Shown: positions 31,497-48,652 of the stretch, piece by piece
How the letters are laid out: each line of letters starts with the position of its first letter
Position numbering within the stretch: the first letter of the stretch is position 1
Source of the DNA: Ignavibacteria bacterium
GTDB taxonomy: Bacteria; Bacteroidota; Ignavibacteria; Kapaibacteriales; Kapaibacteriaceae
Length of the DNA stretch: 53,237 nucleotides
Direction: 5' to 3'
Assembly: GCA_947459875.1 (NCBI GenBank)
Contig: CANHFG010000005.1
Span: 1-53,237, forward strand
Position numbers and translations under genes: made by a program
The notes under the pieces: model-generated
Databases searched by the model: none
What the model saw: only the letters and a program-made list of their open reading frames with translations
Told to the model about the DNA's origin: nothing

Positions 31497-34343
31497 TTAT
31501 CGAGCGATCACCAGGGGCCAGGAGCGCGTCAGATCTCCGCTGACCATGCGGATGTAGTAAGCCCCGGAACCAAGAACGTCGATACTGATCGGATGCAGGA
31601 AGGGGGCTCGAAATGGGAGTCGACCCAGCTCCTCGGCTAGCAATCGACGTCCGGTCACGTCGCAGATCTCGAAAACAAGCGGCGACTGCGGATAATCGGC
31701 GTAAACGGGAACATACACCACACTGGACGCGGGATTCGGGAAAACGGCAGAGGGGCCCGCAGCTGAGAAAAGAGTGTCCGTCGGACGCTGACCCGATGCC
31801 CATGTGTTCTGTCCGAGGAGTGCTTCGATAGTGGACATCGCCGTGTCGATCACGATCACCTGTCGAAACGACCGTCGATGTCCCGGCGGAACAGGCATGG
31901 CAAACCGCATCCCTGTCACGGTTGCCACATCATTCACATCGGTATATCGGAAACGCTCCGGATCGCGCAGGATCTGGGTCTTCGTCTCGGTCGTAAATCC
32001 GCTATAGGTTGTCGTATTGTCGATACCTGCCAGCAGGGGGCGACTATCACTGTAGGGAGATTCACAGTACATGGCAACCATAGGCTGCTGCTGACCAAGC
32101 GCCACGACGTATTGAAATGGACTGCCATTGTCGCCACCATAGGTCCGGTTCTTGGCTGGCTGACGCCCCAGATCCCAGTCATAGAACCATGCAACAGCCA
32201 GATCATGCAGGGCAGTATCGCTCCGGTTGGTGATGGTCCCATCGATCCGCACGACGTTGCTCGCTGAGTCCAGCTCGACGCTGAGTTCTATCTCCACACC
32301 GATGCGAAGAGAGTCGGGCGCATCGGCATCGCTAACAATGCCCGACACGTTGCGATTTCCGGAGAACCTTCGCAAAGGACGGAAGTGATCGTTGTTGCGA
32401 CGGACCGATCGAACGGCATCGACGGTGCGTCCGTTGGCATGGACCATCAAGCCCCCTTCATAGAGCTGACCGCAGAAGTCCCGAAAACGCACTCCCTCGC
32501 CCTGGCCACGCTCGATATCGGTATTGCCGATACGCCCGCGATCACCGATGCTCACGCGCATGTCGTTGTTGGCAAGAGTTGTGAAGGCAGGAGAAGGAGT
32601 AATGGCATAACTGTATCGTCTGCTGATCGATGCACCCGAGCGATCCGTTCCAAGAAGGCGCATGTGGACGTATGCAGCGGTATCGGTTTCGGCCACCACA
32701 ACGAAGTCCTGCACGGGCATGAAGAATCTCTCCCCGATGCCGATCTCACGCTGGACGATCGTGCCTGCCATGGACTGCGCACGAAGCGCGTCACTGCCCG
32801 CTCCACTGATGCCCTCCACGCCGATGAGCTTCATCGTCCACGGAGCCAATCGGTTTATCAGACCGATGCGCGCCGAGAGCGTATCGCCCACCGTCCAGCG
32901 TTGCGCTCCACTCTTGGCAACGAGCTCGACCGTGTCGACCTCGATCGACACCAGCGTATCCGGATGTGCAGTGACAGCCTTGAGGGCGTTCACTCGACCA
33001 CGCGGAAGCTGAAGGGGGCTGATCCCTGCCGGAATGTCCTTCCAGGGTTCTTCGTCCACCGCATCCCTAACCATCGCGCAGGCCTCAAGCGGCCCGATAC
33101 GCGGGTATCGCGAGCGGACAAGTCCCACCAGAGCAGATGCGATCGGCGCCGATCCCGACGTACAGCAGAAACTTGCATACGCGCCATCGTTGGACGTGCT
33201 CCAGCTGGAATGTCCGGGTGCCATGACGTCAACAGTCGGTCCGCGACCGGTCATGGCTATGACATTATCGGAGGCATCGACCACGCCAACTCCGAGAACG
33301 CCTTTGTAGCTGGCCGGGTAGAAGGGCGATGCCGAGTAGTGGTTCCCGGCAGCGGCCACAACGGCCGTGCCCCGCGCAATGGCATATGAGACAACATCCT
33401 GGTCGATGCATGACGGAGACTGGCTACCCCAGGAACAATTGACAACGTCGAAGCCATTGACCGCACAGTACATGATGGACTCGTATCCAAAGACGATGCC
33501 GGTTGTTCCGTTGGGCATCGTGCGTAGGGGAAACAACTTGCACCTGCCGCCTACCCCGGCAATGCCCTTGGCGTTATTGGCCGTAGCCCCACATGTACCA
33601 GCTACGCTGGTTCCGTGACCATTATTCGGGTTGAAGGCATCTCCCGGCGATGAGGCATCTTCCTTCCACGAGAAATTATATCCACGATGGTCATCGATGA
33701 ATCCGTTGCCGTCATCATCGATGGAATTGCCGGGGATCTCTGCTGTGCGCGTGAAGATCGACTCGACGAGATCCTCATGCTCGGTGCGAACGCCGCTGTC
33801 ACTGATACCGATGATCACCGTGTCACTTCCCGGCTCGATATCCCACGCTGCGTAGACCTCAATAGTTCGCAGAAGGTCCTGACGCAGTCGTTCAGGGTCG
33901 TTGGGTTCTCCACACAGCTCCATCACGCACCACGGGGCGGCGCATTCAATGGGTCCGCAACCCATCAGCAGTCGCGCAATGATCTGCTCCGGTGGAAGCT
34001 CCGGGCGATCATAGCGAACTACGTACGAACGCAGCAGACGTTCCTCTATGACAAGAGCATCATTCAACGTCATGGGTCGATCTCTGTTCGGCCCAGTTCC
34101 ACTTCGCTGCTGAAACGCCAGCGACTGCTCGAACGGCAGTACTGGACGTTCGACAGTAAGACCCAGCTCGGCCAGAACGGCTTCGGCGCGTGATGCATAC
34201 TCGGGCGCGACCCTGATCTTGAGCATTCCCTTCAACACCGGATCAGGCCGATGCGGCAATTCGGCAGGCCAGACATCATACTGTGCCGAAGAGGTGGTGA
34301 CGACCAGCGCAAGCAGCACTGGCAGCAAGACGAAACTGTTCAT
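31497..34343 (-). CDS. secreted subtilisin-like serine protease with T9SS sorting domain (1)
   Basis: 948 aa. Signal peptide SFVLLPVLLALVVTTSSAQ, a ~130-residue propeptide-like region, then an S8 peptidase domain: catalytic Asp in IIGISDSGVRTEHEDL near residue 180, His in NGHGTSVAGTCG near 245, Ser in TSGSAPIASALVG near 395. A long Ig-like/beta region follows, and the last ~80 residues (VFPNPASS ... VTGRRLL ... GSGAYYIRMVSG) are a type A T9SS signal. So it is exported through the outer membrane. It begins at an ATGA overlap with the second protease. Substrates unknown; nutrient proteolysis or maturation of surface proteins are both possible. Confidence 0.93.
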   Translation of the reverse strand: MNSFVLLPVLLALVVTTSSAQYDVWPAELPHRPDPVLKGMLKIRVAPEYASRAEAVLAELGLTVERPVLPFEQSLAFQQRSGTGPNRDRPMTLNDALVIEERLLRSYVVRYDRPELPPEQIIARLLMGCGPIECAAPWCVMELCGEPNDPERLRQDLLRTIEVYAAWDIEPGSDTVIIGISDSGVRTEHEDLVESIFTRTAEIPGNSIDDDGNGFIDDHRGYNFSWKEDASSPGDAFNPNNGHGTSVAGTCGATANNAKGIAGVGGRCKLFPLRTMPNGTTGIVFGYESIMYCAVNGFDVVNCSWGSQSPSCIDQDVVSYAIARGTAVVAAAGNHYSASPFYPASYKGVLGVGVVDASDNVIAMTGRGPTVDVMAPGHSSWSTSNDGAYASFCCTSGSAPIASALVGLVRSRYPRIGPLEACAMVRDAVDEEPWKDIPAGISPLQLPRGRVNALKAVTAHPDTLVSIEVDTVELVAKSGAQRWTVGDTLSARIGLINRLAPWTMKLIGVEGISGAGSDALRAQSMAGTIVQREIGIGERFFMPVQDFVVVAETDTAAYVHMRLLGTDRSGASISRRYSYAITPSPAFTTLANNDMRVSIGDRGRIGNTDIERGQGEGVRFRDFCGQLYEGGLMVHANGRTVDAVRSVRRNNDHFRPLRRFSGNRNVSGIVSDADAPDSLRIGVEIELSVELDSASNVVRIDGTITNRSDTALHDLAVAWFYDWDLGRQPAKNRTYGGDNGSPFQYVVALGQQQPMVAMYCESPYSDSRPLLAGIDNTTTYSGFTTETKTQILRDPERFRYTDVNDVATVTGMRFAMPVPPGHRRSFRQVIVIDTAMSTIEALLGQNTWASGQRPTDTLFSAAGPSAVFPNPASSVVYVPVYADYPQSPLVFEICDVTGRRLLAEELGRLPFRAPFLHPISIDVLGSGAYYIRMVSGDLTRSWPLVIAR

Positions 34344-37219
34344 CGAACAAACCGTAGATGTCGGAATTGACGGGATCGTGCGTCCTCGATACGGAGCGTG
34401 TAGGCCCCCTTCTCGAGTGTTGACGCATCAAAGGTCACCTGGCCTTCACCGGAATGAAACCACGAGATTCGCTCACGGCCAAAGACGTCGAACACCGTGC
34501 ATCGTCCCTCCGTGCCCGAGGCACGAACCGTGGCGATGTCCGTGACGGGGTTGGGAATCACAAGTGCTTCGATCTGTACCACATTCTCCTGGCTCACCGA
34601 TACGGGCGAGAGAAACTCACGCAGAAGATCGGACGCGGGCCCCCAATTCGATGCCGAGGCGATCACAACCTTGAATGACCATGTCTGCCCGACCTCAAGG
34701 GGCTTCGTGCGGCGCATGCCAACAACTCCGCAGATATCACCAACGGCCTCATTGAAGGATGCTCCGCCGGAGAGCAATTGAACGCGATCACGGTGTGTGA
34801 AGCCGTCGCTGTCATCGATGATCGTATTCAGGAGGACTCCAACCGACTGTGCACGATCCTCGGCGTCATCGCTGAGAACTGCGACGCAGATCCCACCTCT
34901 TGTGCTCTCCTTGTAGATCACCTGTGCCGCTGCATTCGGTGTCCGCATCGTGGCAGGCAGAGCCTCTGCCAGGGGCTTGATCGTGTTGTCCCTGCCGCCC
35001 GTGGTGATATCCCAGTCCAGCAGATATCCGGCAGCGACCGACGGCAACGGGGCTGATCGGGGCGTGATGCTCACGTTCCAAACCGTGATCGACTTGTCTT
35101 TGAAGGGAAAGCTGCACGTCTGCACCACTTCAACCCCGATCTGGGCAGCAGCTGCAGCGTCGACCATCCGGCACGAAGCCGGCTGCGGCTCAACCTCGAA
35201 CGGCTTTGACGCGATAAAGTCCGACGTATACGGTGGATCATTCCTGAACCCGGTCACGGAGCGGTCGCCACCGTCAACGAGGAAGAACCCGCCGGGCGAC
35301 ATCAATTGGTAGACCGGCTTGTTTACAAAACCACTTCCCTGCCGCGTACTTGCCACCGAATTGTATCCGACCATGCCGTCATCAGACATCGAATAGAGCA
35401 ACGAGTCATTCTCGAACCGCGAGATCGGCGCCGGCAGGTTGAGGTAATGAAAGGCGTAGTCTTGATACGTTTCTCCTAGGAACTCCACACGCATCAGGCA
35501 TGCCTCTGAGCCGATCGCCTTCACCACGAAGGGGAATTGCTTCGAGCGGGCAGTACCGGCCGTTGCGATCGTTCCGAGGTTGTCCCTCTCACGCAGGGCC
35601 TGCAGGTCCCATCCGTTCGCGGTCAGGATACGGGGCTCGATCTCCACCCATGCCGGACCAAGGTCGTTGGCGATCTCAAACTCCAAATAAAGTGTGTCTC
35701 CAACCCGGAAGCGCGTTGGCAGCGGTCCGGATGAAACGGTCTGACGAACCGATGCAATGCGCATCGAGGGCTGGGAAAGGGGCTCAATGGTGACCGCGCG
35801 GAACATGCTCAGGCGCGGAGCAACGTACTGCGAAACGCCCGGATTCACCGATGTGATGTCAATGGCCGTGCGTCGCAGATGGGCTGCCACCTGACGTGCC
35901 GTCAACTGCGGCCATCGCGCACGAACAACCCCCGCAGCACCCGCTACGATGGGCGCGGCAAACGACGTGCCGGCTGTGCCTGTTGATGTGTAGTCGCCTT
36001 CGGGTCGGTCCCCACTGTAGGTGGAGATCGCAAGATTTCCGGGCGCCATCACATAGGAATTCCCGGCCAGTCCGCTGCTACCGATCACAAAGTCATCCGG
36101 CGTAGTCTCGCCTACACCAAGCACACCTTCATAGGACGACGGATAATTGCGCCGGTTATAGGCCGCGCCGGGTACATCGCTTCCATGATTCCCGGCCGAG
36201 GCGACAACAAGAACATTTTTTGCTAGACAGAAGTCGATGACGGACTGATCAATAGCCGACGCTGGCTTGACCACACCCCACGATGCATTCACAACGGGAA
36301 AACCTCGTTCGGCCGCATATATGAGAGACAGATATCCGAACTGGATGCCTCCGGTTGCGCCGGCAGCACCAATCGGGAAGAAACGGGATTTCATGCCCGC
36401 CGAAGCGATACCCTTGCCATTGTCCGTGGAAGCCGCCGCGAGTCCAGCAACCCGAGTACCGTGATCGAATGCCGTTCTCGGCGGTGTTGAGCCCCCTGAA
36501 AAAGCAAAGTCGTACCCACGGAAATCATCAACGTAGCCGTTTGCGTCGTCATCGATCTTGTTATCGGGTACTTCTGCCCTGTTGGCAGCAATGTTGTCCT
36601 TCAGGTCCTCATGGTCCTGATAGCAGCCGTCATCGCTAATGCCGATGACAACCGAGTCCGAACCCTTGAAGATCTCCCACGTCGCATTGAAACCTATGGT
36701 CTGCAGATAGTCCTGCTGTGAAAGGGCCGGGTCGTTCGCTCTGGCATGCAGCTGATCGATCGTCCAGGGTTCGACGATCTCGATCTCCTCCGGGATCACC
36801 TTGCGCAGATAGGCGATCGCCGAGGGCACGTTGCGCGGACCCGTAAACGCGATCGTAAATGTCCGTGTCAGCCGGTCTTCGGCATCACGCAGTTCGTTTC
36901 GCTGAGCCACCCGGGCTGCATTCATCGTCATGCCGGGCTCCGGCGCGATGATCGCCCTTGAGGAGAAGAATTCCGTGCGCTCCGGGGGCAGAAACTGCTG
37001 TGCCACCGTAAATCCATCAGGAAGAACGCGGTTAACCTCGTCGGCCGTGCGTTTTGAGACCATGCGGACATGAAGTCTTCCGGCAACGATCTGAAGCGGG
37101 CGACCACCAAATGAAATCGTTTCGCTCGCTTCCTGCTGCGCGTGAGCGGTGTGCGACAACAAACAAAGCAGTACGATCGGCAGAACGTGGACAACGTTTA
37201 GAGCGAGAAGTTTGGGCAT
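34340..37219 (-). CDS. secreted subtilisin-like serine protease with T9SS sorting domain (2)
   Basis: 959 aa. Signal peptide VLPIVLLCLLSHTAHAQ. S8 triad: Asp in VIGISDDGCYQDHEDL near residue 190, His in FDHGTRVAGLAAAS near 250, Ser in GTAGTSFAAPIVAG near 410. The C-terminus has VIPNPVTDIATV, CTVFDVFGRERI and EKGAYTLRIED, a type A T9SS sorting domain. Paralogous to the next gene in domain order and in motifs such as NKIDDDANGYVDDFRGYDF, but well diverged. Divergent from dnaX with a very short gap (about 40 nt), which must hold both promoters. Confidence 0.93.
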   Translation of the reverse strand: MPKLLALNVVHVLPIVLLCLLSHTAHAQQEASETISFGGRPLQIVAGRLHVRMVSKRTADEVNRVLPDGFTVAQQFLPPERTEFFSSRAIIAPEPGMTMNAARVAQRNELRDAEDRLTRTFTIAFTGPRNVPSAIAYLRKVIPEEIEIVEPWTIDQLHARANDPALSQQDYLQTIGFNATWEIFKGSDSVVIGISDDGCYQDHEDLKDNIAANRAEVPDNKIDDDANGYVDDFRGYDFAFSGGSTPPRTAFDHGTRVAGLAAASTDNGKGIASAGMKSRFFPIGAAGATGGIQFGYLSLIYAAERGFPVVNASWGVVKPASAIDQSVIDFCLAKNVLVVASAGNHGSDVPGAAYNRRNYPSSYEGVLGVGETTPDDFVIGSSGLAGNSYVMAPGNLAISTYSGDRPEGDYTSTGTAGTSFAAPIVAGAAGVVRARWPQLTARQVAAHLRRTAIDITSVNPGVSQYVAPRLSMFRAVTIEPLSQPSMRIASVRQTVSSGPLPTRFRVGDTLYLEFEIANDLGPAWVEIEPRILTANGWDLQALRERDNLGTIATAGTARSKQFPFVVKAIGSEACLMRVEFLGETYQDYAFHYLNLPAPISRFENDSLLYSMSDDGMVGYNSVASTRQGSGFVNKPVYQLMSPGGFFLVDGGDRSVTGFRNDPPYTSDFIASKPFEVEPQPASCRMVDAAAAAQIGVEVVQTCSFPFKDKSITVWNVSITPRSAPLPSVAAGYLLDWDITTGGRDNTIKPLAEALPATMRTPNAAAQVIYKESTRGGICVAVLSDDAEDRAQSVGVLLNTIIDDSDGFTHRDRVQLLSGGASFNEAVGDICGVVGMRRTKPLEVGQTWSFKVVIASASNWGPASDLLREFLSPVSVSQENVVQIEALVIPNPVTDIATVRASGTEGRCTVFDVFGRERISWFHSGEGQVTFDASTLEKGAYTLRIEDARSRQFRHLRFVR

Positions 37220-39470: not shown

Positions 39471-41087
39471 ATGATCGACACGCATGCGCACATTGACACG
39501 AAAGCGTTCGATGAAGATCGTCCGTCAGTCTTGGAGCGTGCCTTCGATTCAGGAATCGAATACATCATCGTTCCTGATATCAAGCCCCCTGCCCGCCCAC
39601 ATTTGAAGAGTGTTGTTGATGCCGACCCGCGGCTGTTTCGCGGAGTTGGTATTCATCCGCATCATGCCGGCGAGGTCGGCCCCGGCGATCTTGACGACGT
39701 ATTGGAGCAGAGCTTTGAGGAAAAGGTCGTAGCCATCGGCGAGATCGGGCTGGATTACTACTATGACTTCTGCCCTCCTGAGACGCAGAAGTCGTACTTT
39801 CGTGAGCAATTGAAGATCGCAAAGTCGCGATCGCTGCCGGTGATCGTCCACAACCGGGAAGCCGACGAGGACGTTCTGCAGATCATCGAAGAGGAGCAGG
39901 ACGGCAGCCTGCGTGGCGTGCTGCACTGCTTTTCCAGCGGCGTGGACGTTCTTGAACGGGCTATCGACCTCGGTTTTCATGTGTCGTTCACGGGCAACAT
40001 CACTTTTGCGCGCTTCACACTACACGATGTTCTGCATCGTGTTCCCCGCGACCGATTCATGTTCGAAACAGACTCACCATACATGACCCCCGTACCACAC
40101 CGAGGCAAGCGTAACGAGCCTGCCTACGTGAGACTGGTAGCGGAAAAATTCTCGGAGATCACAGGAATGACATTATCGGATGTCCTTGATACGACTACCG
40201 CCACTGCCAAGCGCCTTTTTGGTCTGGCGATGGCCCTCATCGTTGTTACGATATCTGCCGTGGCCCAGCCGGTGGCCCCAGATCCGGATAATTACGACGT
40301 CGACTCCGACTATGATGTTGCCTATGAGAACTACCAAGTTGACTCATTGACCTGGGCACGTCTTGTCGCCCCGCGGTCGTTCGGTTTTGGCATCAGCGTC
40401 GGATCGAACACCATCACCGAGCGCCGGGTGTACCAGCAGATTTACCAGCGTGACCTGGCAAAAGGTCCTTTTTGGAGAGACTCCTCTGACTTCGGTGACT
40501 CTGTCACGTCGTTCTCGTATCCATCGATCCTCAGCTTCGGTGGCACCTTTGCATTTCAGGCCAGTGACCGGCTGATGCTGGAAGCCACCTACGTGAACAC
40601 CCGAAACGATAGCAAGCAGCGCCTCTACAATCTGCCGGTCATCACGACGCATATCGCAGAGGCTACGATGCTCTATGCGCTCAATCCCTACAACAAGGTG
40701 AACTTCATTCCACAGATCGGCATGGCATACGCCTACACGGACGACGGCGTGCAGACCATCTCCAAGCTGGGAATCGTTGGCGGGATAGGCGCCGGTGTGG
40801 CCATTCCGACCTCGTTCGGTACGTTCTACCCGATGTTCAATGTGCGGTTCAACTTCATGCTTGGACAGGACCTGAGGCAGGTCGTGCGCACCGAGTTTGT
40901 TGATGAAGAGGATAAGTCGAAGTCGTGGTTTGACCCTTCCATGACGCGGCCCGACCCGCTTGCTCCGAACTCCGGAACGCAGGTGTATTACGATCAGGCA
41001 ACGAACAGGTATTCGCAGGATCTGGCTGACATCACGACGATCTACTCGATCCCACGGCTGACGATCCTGTTCTATCCTAACTTCTGA
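39471..41087 (+). CDS. TatD-family nuclease fused in frame to an outer-membrane beta-barrel
   Basis: 538 aa. Residues 1-253 are a complete TatD hydrolase: metal ligands in DTHAHID, GEIGLDYYYD, VIVHNREA, LHCFSS and ETDSPYMTP, and the family's usual end TATAKRLFGL. There is no stop there. The same residues (AKRLFGLAMALIVVTISAVAQ) read as a good signal peptide, and the remaining ~270 residues look like an outer-membrane barrel (FGFGISVGSN, LSFGGTFAFQASDRLMLEATYVN, final LTILFYPNF). An ATG at 40167 with GGAG nine bases upstream lies in frame inside the TatD part and could start the barrel separately (MTLSDVLD). So this is either one fusion or two overlapping in-frame products; the nuclease and barrel belong in different compartments. 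Confidence 0.85.
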   Translation: MIDTHAHIDTKAFDEDRPSVLERAFDSGIEYIIVPDIKPPARPHLKSVVDADPRLFRGVGIHPHHAGEVGPGDLDDVLEQSFEEKVVAIGEIGLDYYYDFCPPETQKSYFREQLKIAKSRSLPVIVHNREADEDVLQIIEEEQDGSLRGVLHCFSSGVDVLERAIDLGFHVSFTGNITFARFTLHDVLHRVPRDRFMFETDSPYMTPVPHRGKRNEPAYVRLVAEKFSEITGMTLSDVLDTTTATAKRLFGLAMALIVVTISAVAQPVAPDPDNYDVDSDYDVAYENYQVDSLTWARLVAPRSFGFGISVGSNTITERRVYQQIYQRDLAKGPFWRDSSDFGDSVTSFSYPSILSFGGTFAFQASDRLMLEATYVNTRNDSKQRLYNLPVITTHIAEATMLYALNPYNKVNFIPQIGMAYAYTDDGVQTISKLGIVGGIGAGVAIPTSFGTFYPMFNVRFNFMLGQDLRQVVRTEFVDEEDKSKSWFDPSMTRPDPLAPNSGTQVYYDQATNRYSQDLADITTIYSIPRLTILFYPNF

Positions 41088-43097: not shown

Positions 43098-44981
43098 CTA
43101 TCGTGCTATCGATGCGCGTACGCTGCGGTTGGAAACTCGGCCCATCGGGGTTCGATTCGCATCGTCTTCCGTCACGTCGATGCGAACGTTCAAGCGCTCA
43201 GACCGGACCCCTATCAGAGCCACTATTGCCTGCGCACGTTTCTGTGCCAACTGTCTGTTTGACTCTATGGTGCCGATATTATCGGTCGAGGCCACAAGGG
43301 TCACACTCGCTCCGCTTCGCAGAGCATTGCGGACAACATCCAGTTGCGACTGGCTGACCATCCTGGGCGTTGAACTGTTAAAGTCGAAATAGCTCAAGGT
43401 GACAAGCTCCTCACCCTGACGTCCGTCCAGTCGACGTACGTCAATTGATTCGTCGGCAATGCCCTCAACAATTGCGCGAAGGGTCGCATCACTCGAGCGC
43501 ACATCACCGACGGCGGCAGACGAACGCAACTCAAGTGTTGCCGCTGCTGTCGAGAGCATCGTCGTATCGATGATAACACTATAGGCCGGCCCCGTTCCAA
43601 CGATGGGAAGGGGCTTGCCATTGAGCGATGCCGTGACCGACTCAGTGCAGGTCGTGTCACACGTAAGAACGTGGGCAAAGCTCACCGTACCGGCAACGCG
43701 CGACACCTGTACCGTGGCGTCTCCCGCTGTTAGCAGGGCGGGTTGATCGTTGATCAGAAAGCTAACGTTCCGCTGCTCATCTAATCGTTCAGTCTCCTCC
43801 GGTTGCGGAGGATTTTCAGTCTTGACCGAGATGCGTGAGTTATCGATCCCGAGCTTGCGTATTGCCCACGCATAGCGCTCACGTGCAAGAACCGCCGGCT
43901 CATCGGCTGCGGCCGAGCCGATGATCGTCAGTCGCGCCGACGGATCATCATTCATCGCCGTCCGCACGGCGTCAATCACCCGCTGTTGAATCTGCTCGCG
44001 CTCTGACTCGCCGGCAAGAGGCGAGGTAGAGTTTCGCTCGAAAAACATCACTGACGGTACCGAAAAGAGACGCCGAATTTCCTTGCGCTTGAGCATCGGC
44101 AGCACGATCGTGTCGGATGTATTCGGCAGCTCAAGACGCGAGATCACCGTTGGCACACGAACAACAGCCGGTGGCGGTGGCGGCGGTGGCGGTGGTGGCG
44201 GTGGAGTAGGGTTTTGCTTCCGAATACCATAGCGCACCGATGCACCGAACTGGATGGAAGCAGCAGACCAGCTCAAACTCGAAGTCAGGTCCGTCAGTCC
44301 GTACAGCACACTCAACTGTGGCGATACTTCTAGTCCACCCGTGGTGGCCATCGGCCACGATACCGCAAGCGTTGCGAGCATCTGCACGGATGTGTTGGGA
44401 AGATCACCGCTGTAGATATTCCTGGTCCGTGCGCCATCAACGAACGTCACACCCGCATCGGTAGGCTCGATCAGTTCCTCCTGCTGCGAGAAGGTTGCGC
44501 TCATCGGCAGTCCTATCATTCCGCCGATTCGAACACGAAGCGGAAGAGACGACAATGGCCGGGCACTGACGAATGGCTCTATGCCAAACACAGCGTAGGA
44601 TGCATCAACCGTGTGGCGGGATACGCCATCCGAGACCGTGTTGCCCTGAATGACGAAGGAAGTGAACTCATCTTCGACAAGTGAAGCAGACAGATCAGTC
44701 CAGGAAAGACGAGCTCCTATGCGCACCGGCTCGCCTCCGATGAACGTGCCCAGATCGTATGTCACAGCAGCGCCGATTGCCGGTCCAATACCATTGCCGC
44801 TCGTGAAGGTTGCACAGCACGACGGGAACCGAGGATCCAGAAGGCGAAAACCGGCCGAGTGAACGTTATAGCCCGCTGCAACATCGGCCTGCAAGCCGAG
44901 GCGCGTCAGCGACGTGTCTCGCTGCGCCACTGCAGCGTGCATTCCAACCAGAGCAATCAGACAGGCAAGTCGTAGTATCAT
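43098..44981 (-). CDS. outer-membrane barrel protein with polyproline linker and two OmpA-like domains
   Basis: 627 aa. Signal peptide MILRLACLIALVGMHAAVAQ. Residues ~20-255 read as an outer-membrane beta-barrel. A run of 12 prolines follows, then two OmpA/MotB-type peptidoglycan-binding-like segments: VMFFERNSTSPLAGESEREQIQQ ... RERYAWAIRKLGI near residue 315, and SYFDFNSSTPRMVSQSQLDVVRNAL ... NRQLAQKRAQAIVALI near 530. The first lacks the usual NxxLSxxRA block. It starts at an ATGA overlap with the 1224-aa surface protein, so the two are made together; the barrel may anchor or assemble that protein (inference). Confidence 0.85.
   Translation of the reverse strand: MILRLACLIALVGMHAAVAQRDTSLTRLGLQADVAAGYNVHSAGFRLLDPRFPSCCATFTSGNGIGPAIGAAVTYDLGTFIGGEPVRIGARLSWTDLSASLVEDEFTSFVIQGNTVSDGVSRHTVDASYAVFGIEPFVSARPLSSLPLRVRIGGMIGLPMSATFSQQEELIEPTDAGVTFVDGARTRNIYSGDLPNTSVQMLATLAVSWPMATTGGLEVSPQLSVLYGLTDLTSSLSWSAASIQFGASVRYGIRKQNPTPPPPPPPPPPPPAVVRVPTVISRLELPNTSDTIVLPMLKRKEIRRLFSVPSVMFFERNSTSPLAGESEREQIQQRVIDAVRTAMNDDPSARLTIIGSAAADEPAVLARERYAWAIRKLGIDNSRISVKTENPPQPEETERLDEQRNVSFLINDQPALLTAGDATVQVSRVAGTVSFAHVLTCDTTCTESVTASLNGKPLPIVGTGPAYSVIIDTTMLSTAAATLELRSSAAVGDVRSSDATLRAIVEGIADESIDVRRLDGRQGEELVTLSYFDFNSSTPRMVSQSQLDVVRNALRSGASVTLVASTDNIGTIESNRQLAQKRAQAIVALIGVRSERLNVRIDVTEDDANRTPMGRVSNRSVRASIAR
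44169..44204 (-). repeat. (CCR)12 proline-codon repeat in the OmpA-like gene
   Basis: Twelve consecutive CCA/CCG codons encode the polyproline linker between barrel and OmpA-like domains. Triplet slippage would change linker length without breaking the frame. The mix of CCA and CCG lowers the slippage rate compared with a pure repeat. Confidence 0.9.
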
Positions 44982-47900
44982 CGCACGATCAGTAATGACG
45001 ACGATGAAACATACCCCTGTGCATCGAGCAGGACCCTGTAAGCGCCTACTTGGAGAGAACGAACGTCAACGTTACGGTTGTTCGCGCCATCGACCAGCTC
45101 AAACGATTCGTCCACGATGACCATGCCCTGTGGATCCACGATTCGAAGTCGTGCAGGAGTGTTGCGATCAGACCTGATTCCGACCGTGACATCATCAGAA
45201 GTCGGATTCGGGAACACCCCACCGATGCTTGGGCCGGTACGGAATCTGAAGTGTCGGGTTGGGTCGGGGTTTGCGATCCTCAGCAGTGCTGCAGCATACG
45301 TTGTGGAGACGGCCTTCCCGAAGGCAGTTGCCGACGTGTCCATGATCATCACCGAGGAGTCCTGCCGACCGATACCGGCAGGCCCAACAAGCCAGATGGC
45401 CGTATCCTGCCTACTGAAGGAACGCTCCACTCGGAACCGTATACGACGCCTGCCAGCGGAGAACTCCTGCGAGATGATCTCGCCCGAGCCCCCTCTCACA
45501 TCGACACTCTGCGCAAGGAAATGATGTTCATCCATCTCAATGATCGCTTCGAAGGGGCGGATGCCATCGTAACGCACGTTCTCGGTGATAGTCGTGATGA
45601 TGGGTATGCGGACGATGCTTCTCGGGTCGACCGTTACACTCTGCGGCCTCACCACAGCCGTGCCGGTGTAGGCAAGGAGCCGCACCTGCGTGATGGCAGC
45701 ACACGGGGTAAAGCGGAACGACAGCACATCGTTGCCACTGATCGGAGCCCCGGTATGCGTGACCGTAAAGACAACCGAATCGCCCGGAGCGATCACCGTC
45801 GGCACCGTCAGATCGGTGGTAAACGGAGCTCCAGAAGTGAGCGTCAGCTCTGCAAGCGAAGCAGGCGTTGCCGAACGGTTCCACAGGGTGACCGTGCGCT
45901 GGGGCCGCTCGGGGATGAATGCCAGTGCCGGATGAGACACCGAGATCTCGTCACCCGCGCCACGACCTGAAACACGGATAGACCGGTAAAGAATGTTCTG
46001 TCCGGCGTAGGCAATGACAACTTCGTCGGTGTCGCTACCGCGTCGGCGGGGAACGAAGAGAACTTCGATCTCCAGGCTTGCGCCTGATGCCAGCTGCTGG
46101 CCCGGGGTGAAACCACGGACTCTGAATTGAGAGTTCGTTCCGCCGCGCATGAACAATCCGTCGATCACCACCGGCACGGGATCATTGTTGCGGAGAACAA
46201 TGAATGTTCGGCGCGTCGTGTCACCAACGCAGACATCACCGAAGTTCGTCAGATCCCCGAACGTGGTGAGATTTCTGTCGACCGACCTAATCCTGAGAGG
46301 AACCTTGATCGTGCGGTCACATGCACGAAGTTCAAACGTATCTGTCAGCAGTCCGGTATCGCGTGGTACCGCCCTGAACCTGATCGGCAGACAATCGCCG
46401 GGTGCGATCGTATCGGCGCGGAATGCCTCGGGCATCGTGACCCATAGTGAGTCCTTGAGTCCACCGGAGTTGAAGATCGCTGCTACCGAGCCACGATTGC
46501 ATACTTCGCCGGAGATCACCGTATCGATTCGCGATCCGATCAGCTGATCGCCGAACGAGATCGTCGGAGTCGACATATCCGGAGGCATGATCGCGAATGC
46601 TCCGTCGCTGAGATCAGTTTCGGGATTGATGATGCGCCGCACAAGAAGATTCTCACGCAGGTCATCGGAACATGAGGCAAGCGTGGAGCCATCAGGACCG
46701 TATTCGATGTCATTCATGAGCAGACTATGCCCCGGCATACCTGGTATGCCGCCGAGAATCCGACGTCGTTGCACATCGTATTGCTGGATCTGAGGCTGTC
46801 CGAGCGCACCAAGCGTCACGAATGTCTCGCTTGGATTGATGGTCACACCGACGATGTTCGAGCCCTCGCGGTAGATCACCCGGATCAGCGCCGATGTGCG
46901 CGTATCGTAGAGAAACGTCCGCTGCTCCTGCGGTGTATTGCTGCGTCCGGCATCGGCAACACCAGCAAGGGCGATCAGGCCGTTGGAGCGCGATACGGAA
47001 AGCGTCTGCATCAGCGGAGCACCCATGCGCAGCAGGTCCGTCCGGTAGCGAATGACCTCTGCGCCGGTCTCCGGTGAGACCCTCACGACGTCGCCACTGA
47101 TGAGGGCGACGTTGATGAGACTATCGACAAACCGCACAGCCGAGATGGGCGCATCGAGCGTAATGGTCGACCGTGACGCCAGCGTCGCGCCGTCGAGCAC
47201 GCGAATGCTGGCCGTAAGCGGTCCGGCAACATAGACCGTCGTTCCTGCAGCGTTGGCACACACCTCGGTGACCTCGGGGATGTCTGCCTCGACAACTGCC
47301 CGGGCTGTGACGCTGCCCGAATCAAGGCGCACGATCTGGTCGCGTGCCGGTGACGGCCGATTGACAACAGCCAGAAGGTCACGCGTCGAACCGGCATAGC
47401 TCAGCGCCGAGACCTTCACTCCGGGAAGGGTAGTGCCATCGATCACATACCGCTGCTGCTCGACGGACGATACAACGTCCCATTCGATAACAGTTCCGTT
47501 CTGATACACGGCGCTGATGTAGCGTCCGTCGGCCGAGAACGCCAGATTCGTTGCCTTTGATGCTTCACCAAGAAGCCAGCGGGCATCCGACGCCCCCTGT
47601 TTCTGATACACCCTGATGCGAACGCTGTCGGAGTATGTCTGCGGCACATCCCACACGATCGACGAATCGGCCGTCGAGTCGATGAAATTCCACGTGCGAC
47701 CATTATTGGTCGAAAACTCCACGAACGAGGAAAAGCCCTGGATAGCCCCTTTCCATCGGATCGGTATCCGCTGGCAGGGGGCGAGTCGCTCACCGCCATT
47801 CGGACTTATGACCTGCAGCAATGTCGATGGATTATAGGTTGGCGTATTGGCGAACAGCATGACCGTAAAGCGCTGACCGCCCTCAAACACCACGGTCAGA

Positions 47901-48652
47901 ACATCGCTTACGGGGCCCGGCTTGGTGGGTCGGAAGACAAGGTCAAAGCGGTAGTCCGTGCCGACGTCGACCTCTACCGGCGGAGGCTTCGAGCCATACG
48001 TGCGCTTCCAGACGATCGAGATGTCGCCGGAGGTGGTGATCAGTGAATCGATGAACAGGCGACGTTCGTTACCGTTGGCGTCACGCGTTGCGGCGAACGT
48101 GCGCAGGTTGAGCTTCGTCAGCGATTCGCTCCCCACGGCAACATCTCCGAGATCGAGAAACAGCGGCAGTCGCCGAAACGAACTGTCGCAGATGAACACC
48201 GATCCGCCACGATTCGGGTTGACCGACCACGTCAGGGGGAGAATTCCGACTTCGCCGTTCGAGACGGCAAAGAGCGTGGCACCGCCCTCGTTCAGCGTCG
48301 GAAACACATTGATCTTGGGGGCGAATGTCGATGCCGTAAACACCGCGCGCCATATGCCAGCACCATCGGGAGAAAGCGATGTGATCCGCATGAAGCGGTT
48401 GCTCTCCTGCACGTACACATCCTGCGCCGTGAGCGCAGCCGGCTGTCCTGCGCGGGTTGCGCGAAAGCGCACGGTCACCTGCGGAAACGTCGAAGCATCG
48501 ATAAAAGACCCGACACCAGGAATGGCCACACCTGTGATCGTAACCTGAGCGCTGAGGCATGTCGGCCATACGATACAAAGAAGCAGCGCCAGAGAGAACC
48601 TGATGGAGAGACGCGGTAGCAGGGGGCTTTTCCTGTGGTGTAGTGATGACAT
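44978..48652 (-). CDS. large surface protein: Ig-like, WD40-type propeller, HYDIN-like domains and T9SS tail
   Basis: 1224 aa. Signal peptide FSLALLLCIVWPTCLSAQ. Order: Ig-like region with choice-of-anchor-D/HYDIN-type strands (FLDLGDVAVGSESLTKLNL), a SPNGGERLAPCQRIPIRW segment, a WD40-like propeller (NLAFSADGRYISAVYQNGTVIEWDV ... EYGPDGSTLASCSDD) at about 370-690, further HYDIN-like repeats (TISFGDQLIGSRIDTVISGEVCNRG, FGDVCVGDTTRRTFIV), and a T9SS type A end (GGVFPNPTSDDVTV ... LQVGAYRVLLDAQG). This build is common in FCB surface proteins of unknown ligand. Translationally coupled to the OmpA-like gene. Confidence 0.88.
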   Translation of the reverse strand: MSSLHHRKSPLLPRLSIRFSLALLLCIVWPTCLSAQVTITGVAIPGVGSFIDASTFPQVTVRFRATRAGQPAALTAQDVYVQESNRFMRITSLSPDGAGIWRAVFTASTFAPKINVFPTLNEGGATLFAVSNGEVGILPLTWSVNPNRGGSVFICDSSFRRLPLFLDLGDVAVGSESLTKLNLRTFAATRDANGNERRLFIDSLITTSGDISIVWKRTYGSKPPPVEVDVGTDYRFDLVFRPTKPGPVSDVLTVVFEGGQRFTVMLFANTPTYNPSTLLQVISPNGGERLAPCQRIPIRWKGAIQGFSSFVEFSTNNGRTWNFIDSTADSSIVWDVPQTYSDSVRIRVYQKQGASDARWLLGEASKATNLAFSADGRYISAVYQNGTVIEWDVVSSVEQQRYVIDGTTLPGVKVSALSYAGSTRDLLAVVNRPSPARDQIVRLDSGSVTARAVVEADIPEVTEVCANAAGTTVYVAGPLTASIRVLDGATLASRSTITLDAPISAVRFVDSLINVALISGDVVRVSPETGAEVIRYRTDLLRMGAPLMQTLSVSRSNGLIALAGVADAGRSNTPQEQRTFLYDTRTSALIRVIYREGSNIVGVTINPSETFVTLGALGQPQIQQYDVQRRRILGGIPGMPGHSLLMNDIEYGPDGSTLASCSDDLRENLLVRRIINPETDLSDGAFAIMPPDMSTPTISFGDQLIGSRIDTVISGEVCNRGSVAAIFNSGGLKDSLWVTMPEAFRADTIAPGDCLPIRFRAVPRDTGLLTDTFELRACDRTIKVPLRIRSVDRNLTTFGDLTNFGDVCVGDTTRRTFIVLRNNDPVPVVIDGLFMRGGTNSQFRVRGFTPGQQLASGASLEIEVLFVPRRRGSDTDEVVIAYAGQNILYRSIRVSGRGAGDEISVSHPALAFIPERPQRTVTLWNRSATPASLAELTLTSGAPFTTDLTVPTVIAPGDSVVFTVTHTGAPISGNDVLSFRFTPCAAITQVRLLAYTGTAVVRPQSVTVDPRSIVRIPIITTITENVRYDGIRPFEAIIEMDEHHFLAQSVDVRGGSGEIISQEFSAGRRRIRFRVERSFSRQDTAIWLVGPAGIGRQDSSVMIMDTSATAFGKAVSTTYAAALLRIANPDPTRHFRFRTGPSIGGVFPNPTSDDVTVGIRSDRNTPARLRIVDPQGMVIVDESFELVDGANNRNVDVRSLQVGAYRVLLDAQGYVSSSSLLIVR

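Follow-up and report, generated by a model that had tools for sequence, protein, structure and literature searches.

A predicted nested gene pair in one reading frame: a TatD nuclease and an exported beta-barrel in Kapabacteria

The window analysed here is a 53,237-nucleotide stretch of DNA from an Ignavibacteria bacterium (contig CANHFG010000005.1 of assembly GCA_947459875.1). One of its reading frames, at 39471-41087 on the + strand, is read from the sequence as 538 codons and a stop, is open throughout, and carries a TatD-type nuclease followed by a signal peptide and a beta-barrel. The TatD-barrel arrangement raises the question of where in the cell a conserved nuclease is located. Comparison with related genomes makes it very probable that the locus is a nested same-frame gene pair, in which a TatD-signal-barrel protein would be made from 39471 and an exported barrel from 40167.

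The two halves of the frame and their junction

The Pfam family TatD_DNase (PF01026) matches residues 2-251 of the encoded protein over profile positions 1-253 (E 1.7e-74), and the score against TIGR00010, a TatD subfamily model, exceeds the cutoff of that model. The metal-binding and catalytic residues H5, H7, E91, H127, H152 and D201 are invariant in 115 of 115 aligned loci, and the TatD half is predicted to be an intact TatD-family metal-dependent DNase. The TatD C-terminal motif AKRLFGL runs directly into AMALIVVTISAVA/QPV (the slash marks the expected cut), with no stop between. The original prediction that a full TatD domain, a signal-peptide-like run and a barrel follow one another uninterrupted by a stop is confirmed by the Pfam match, the open frame and the barrel model. 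Its proposal that AKRLFGL has a dual use is also borne out, as AKRLF is the ordinary TatD C-terminal motif and also provides the positively charged n-region for export.

The signal peptide of the putative short product has a positive n-region, a hydrophobic core and an AVA/Q cut site, with cleavage expected after A265. At the expected cut position, [AS]Q is present in 104 of the 115 aligned loci, and the best 12-residue hydropathy at the junction is at least 1.74 in all of them. The net charge of the n-region is mostly +1 to +3 and is zero or lower in 15 of 107 loci. Glutamine commonly stands directly after the signal-peptidase cut in Bacteroidetes (PMC5837995). The junction peptide is predicted to be a suitable substrate for Sec and signal peptidase I.

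Modelled with AlphaFold2 from 12 sequences, the mature 273 residues form an all-beta barrel with a pLDDT of 86.7, and Foldseek places this model with OmpT, OmpA, OprG and OmpW at a probability of 1.00 and modest TM-scores of 0.3-0.6. In a structure model of the full-length protein, junction residues 242-266 have pLDDT values below 50 and are of low confidence. No Pfam family matched the last 285 residues of the window frame alone, and PDB sequences searched with a profile of the barrel gave no significant match. OMP_b-brl is matched by 10 of 25 relatives' barrels (best E 1.5e-5), the window's own protein being without a match. The C-terminal half is predicted to be an outer-membrane-type beta-barrel, both in fold and in location.

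Table 1. Features of the TatD-barrel frame and of the split gene pair; negative codon positions are measured backwards from the LF at the junction.
Feature	Coordinates	Strand	Remarks
TatD nuclease domain, residues 1-253 (predicted)	39471..40229	+	begins at ATG 39471; no terminal stop; PF01026
Putative internal Shine-Dalgarno GGAG in TatD codons TCG GAG	40154..40157	+	9 bases before ATG 40167
Putative internal in-frame start ATG, codon 233, position -18	40167..40169	+	conserved ATG in relatives
Predicted signal peptide of the short product, 33 aa, MTLSDVLDTTTATAKRLFGLAMALIVVTISAVA	40167..40265	+	overlaps TatD C-terminus
Other in-frame ATG, codon 254	40230..40232	+	judged not a start
Predicted mature outer-membrane beta-barrel, 273 aa, and shared stop	40266..41087	+	AlphaFold2; Foldseek; OMP_b-brl in relatives
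Standalone tatD of genome G331	L284:2183-2971	-	
Standalone barrel gene of genome G331	L307:1381-2136	+	

Fused, stop-less loci number 117 and comprise those of the order Kapabacteria and of one neighbouring family, f13, a different family of the same class with five fused loci; 115 of the 117 are in the aligned set. Among 123 genomes of the order that were searched, 114 had TatD matches scoring above the cutoff, and these lie in long frames, except for frames cut by contig ends and the genome G331. The matches of G294 and G295 fall below the cutoff and are also fused. All 60 of the relatives searched gave a match, and the named relatives are mostly Candidatus Kapaibacterium. The TatD motif stands closely before the hydrophobic run at the junction and directly adjoins it in most loci. 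On a tree of the TatD domain, the fused loci, including those of f13 and of the family f19, all lie on one side of a single branch, consistent with a single origin of the fusion. The check for separate tatD and barrel genes with a stop between them, proposed along with the original prediction, found the joint frame throughout the relatives and one split genome, G331. Judged by gene structure, the arrangement is conserved across the entire order, which extends beyond the original prediction.

In G331, tatD ends in HFFDVK and a stop, is followed by a uracil phosphoribosyltransferase gene, and has no ATG at either -18 or -10. A different contig carries the barrel as a gene of its own, of 251 aa and with a separate signal peptide. 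This is a single split case in a genome that is 70% complete. Because the pair is split naturally in G331, neither protein needs the other in cis and their functions are separable.

A further variant is found in f19 (L139-L141, L146 and L298-L304), where TatD and a signal peptide share one frame with a charged segment and with a longer barrel-like protein of another kind. An ATG is present at -12 in 9 of these 11 loci, and the Shine-Dalgarno sequence is weak and not clear. Profile comparison of the f19 barrel with the order's barrel gave a probability of 95.7 (E 8.5e-9), a similarity that may be general to barrels.

The internal start codon and its ribosome-binding site

An in-frame ATG occurs within the last 20 tatD codons in 107 of the 115 fused loci, and an ATG or GTG in 112, whereas the controls have an ATG in this region in 17 of 61 standalone tatD genes and in 1 of 23 fusions of TatD to a radical SAM domain (Fisher p about 1e-13 and 2e-14, respectively, for the first 56 fused loci). 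The ATG is at -10 in 62 loci and at -18 in 33, and in others it is at -16, -15, -14, -13, -12, -11, -7, -4 or -3. Exactly one ATG is present in the last 20 codons in 97 of 115 loci. A simulation in which columns evolve independently on the tree gave a mean of 50 such loci (s.d. 17) and reached 97 in none of 2000 runs; in the same simulation, the number of loci without any ATG was not significantly low (P 0.098). On the tree, the ATG position class changes at least 21 times and the presence of any ATG changes 3 times. The loci are related by descent, and tree-based independent pairs mostly point in the expected direction but are too few for significance. A start at ATG 40230 was also considered and was rejected, as this codon is not conserved in relatives.

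The Shine-Dalgarno sequence lies in codons of the nuclease, and its position can be followed through synonymous choices. Loci with an ATG at -18 are enriched for GCG or TCG followed by GAG at codons -23/-22 in a synonymous-column test. At codon -14, the ratio of GAG to GAA is 39:2 in ATG(-10) loci, where GAG forms GAGGT 7 bases before the ATG, but 5:7 in ATG(-18) loci; at codon -22 it is 23:7 in ATG(-18) loci but 7:45 in ATG(-10) loci (Fisher p 1.5e-4 for codon -14 and 2.5e-8 for codon -22, with loci treated as independent). The column-wise tests draw their control from the other columns within these genes, and they replaced a first synonymous-shuffle test that used a coarse score, took loci as independent and gave a p of 0.049. 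By this measure, column -14 is the most GAG-enriched of 20 glutamate columns in ATG(-10) loci (z 10.9, the next 3.0), and column -22 is the most GAG-enriched glutamate column in ATG(-18) loci (z 3.8, the next 2.3). Within the ATG(-18) loci of f1, the family of the window genome, alanine codon -23 is the most GCG-enriched alanine column, giving gcGGAG. Codon-context bias was rejected as the source of the GAG and GCG excess, as neighbouring codons do not explain it. In the same f1 loci, alanine codon -27 is GCG in 16 of 18, close behind -23, and is not accounted for by the internal ribosome-binding site.

A match of at least 5 bases to the Shine-Dalgarno consensus precedes 73% of ATG(-10) sites, whereas among 479 other in-frame ATGs in these genes 6% have such a match; as a baseline, TatD's own start has at least 4 matched bases in 43%. 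At rarer positions, AAAGGA or AAAGG precedes the ATG in the ATG(-16) loci L013, L019 and L286, and AGGAG precedes the GTG of L014. Of 13 genomes tested, 4 contain the 16S rRNA 3'-end sequence GGATCACCTCCTTT, with two copies in G014, whose genome is a single contig; the others are drafts, which often lack rRNA. Around the internal start, predicted mRNA structure is weaker than that of synonymously shuffled sequences, by +0.94 and +0.81 kcal/mol (SE 0.18 and 0.32).

The relocation of a Shine-Dalgarno sequence at synonymous sites together with the ATG is strongly supported by these comparisons. ATG 40167 and the GGAG 9 bases upstream of it are present in the window as first described, and the proposal of a nested same-frame start at this codon gains strong comparative support from the wandering ATG, the Shine-Dalgarno sequence that tracks it and the weaker mRNA structure. 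A hidden second start appears to have been kept by evolution, so that a single frame appears to yield two proteins destined for different compartments. The frame would join two unrelated proteins, and the conserved end of the first would also hold the start codon, the ribosome-binding site and the signal-peptide n-region that belong to the second. Across more than 100 genomes, the joint relocation of start codon and Shine-Dalgarno sequence would provide a natural record of start movement under protein-coding constraint, and an annotated fusion protein can conceal a separate gene.

Fate of the full-length chain and alternative readings

In the proposed mechanism, ribosomes that start at ATG 39471 would make TatD and then, with no stop between, the signal peptide and barrel, while ribosomes that bind the internal Shine-Dalgarno sequence would initiate at ATG 40167, and their product would be just the barrel, carrying a signal peptide at its N-terminus. 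The short product would be exported by Sec, cut by signal peptidase I before Gln266 and placed in the outer membrane. The full-length chain would insert with TatD on the cytoplasmic side, and cleavage would free the barrel and leave TatD on the inner membrane. From the features described above, we infer that internal initiation takes place in living cells, that the short product is exported, and that the full-length chain is inserted and cleaved. TatD is always followed by the signal peptide and barrel because there is no stop, and so the chain would be cut at the membrane, stay fused or be degraded. A nuclease free of a signal peptide is not made unless the full-length chain is cut, a point that goes beyond the original prediction. 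Cutting by signal peptidase I is the favoured outcome, with about an even chance, because the loci keep the cut site and the positive charges ahead of the hydrophobic core predict a cytoplasmic TatD. Slightly short of an even chance is the combined state in which the locus is a nested gene and a polyprotein at once, the cut chain yielding an inner-membrane TatD and the internal start yielding extra barrel, kept across the order and related families.

A true polyprotein with no internal initiation, whose internal signal peptide would insert with TatD inside and be cut by signal peptidase I, freeing the barrel and keeping TatD attached to the inner membrane, would fit the 117 loci without a stop and the conservation of a hydrophobic core and a cut site preceded by positive residues. 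It would also fit the loci that retain the joint frame without a conserved internal ATG. These are the six genomes of family f5 (L076, L080, L268, L272, L278 and L281), which have no ATG and an inconsistent GTG, and the locus L074; neither ATG nor GTG precedes the junction in L272, L278 and L074, and Shine-Dalgarno matches are mostly absent from f5 and L074. In these loci the barrel may come from the full-length chain only, and f5 possibly represents a pure polyprotein state or uses a non-ATG start. As an account of the order as a whole, however, a polyprotein alone is improbable, leaving unexplained both the wandering but retained ATG with its co-moving synonymous-site Shine-Dalgarno sequence and the lack of this ATG in the TatD-radical SAM fusions.

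Less probable still is that methionine at -18 or -10 is kept for protein reasons, such as packing of the TatD C-terminal helix near the membrane, with no internal initiation. ATG is the sole methionine codon, so that a start and a residue are indistinguishable at that codon alone, and a methionine at -18 is also present in 8 of 61 standalone TatD proteins. A required residue, however, does not account for a position that wanders over 11 codons, usually in exactly one copy, for upstream synonymous codons that follow the ATG, or for mRNA structure that is weakened around it. A stop or frameshift missed between two ordinary genes in the window assembly, of which a stop hidden by a sequencing error had been named with the original prediction and which the draft state of the genome (150 contigs) might allow, has a negligible probability and is ruled out by the identical open junction at 117 loci, in separately assembled genomes, some of them single-contig.

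Relation to known systems and other genes of the window

The preferred reading, a nested same-frame gene pair, has partial parallels in other systems. The Bradyrhizobium fbcH gene encodes a cytochrome b/c1 precursor in which one frame with an internal signal peptide is cut into two proteins. We know of no internal start in fbcH, and a literature search on this precursor found no paper. The first protein of fbcH is a membrane protein, whereas that of the TatD-barrel frame is a soluble nuclease and is accompanied by a conserved internal start. In infB, cheA, ccmM and ssaQ, in-frame internal initiation yields two forms of one protein (PMC11005335). These genes resemble the TatD-barrel locus in having a second same-frame start inside the gene and a shared stop, but their short form is part of the same protein, whereas here it would be an unrelated barrel with its own signal peptide and another compartment. 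The lysA gene of mycobacteriophage Ms6 contains the embedded Lysin241 (PMC3111421), likewise a second gene wholly embedded in frame with a consensus ribosome-binding site; unlike in the TatD-barrel pair, both products are endolysins, and neither a signal peptide at the internal start nor a second compartment is involved.

Fusions of TatD to a radical SAM-like domain (approximately 450-470 aa; L131-L138, L142-L145, L148-L156 and L158) occur in families elsewhere in the class and phylum. They resemble the TatD-barrel genes in joining TatD to a C-terminal partner in one frame, but they lack a signal peptide, and an ATG within the final 20 tatD codons is rare among them (1 of 23). No prior report of a Kapabacteria TatD fusion or of an internally cut polyprotein of this kind was found in the literature searched, most subscription journals lying outside its scope. 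In-frame internal starts are already known, and the conserved two-compartment version appears to be new.

Elsewhere in the window, two genes on the - strand encode proteins with a candidate sorting domain. The first, at 34340-37219, encodes a subtilase-family protease with a C-terminal Por_Secre_tail match just below the cutoff, and the second, at 44978-48652, encodes a secreted protein of 1224 aa with a match to the Por_Secre_tail C-terminal sorting domain; both matches point to putative type IX secretion.
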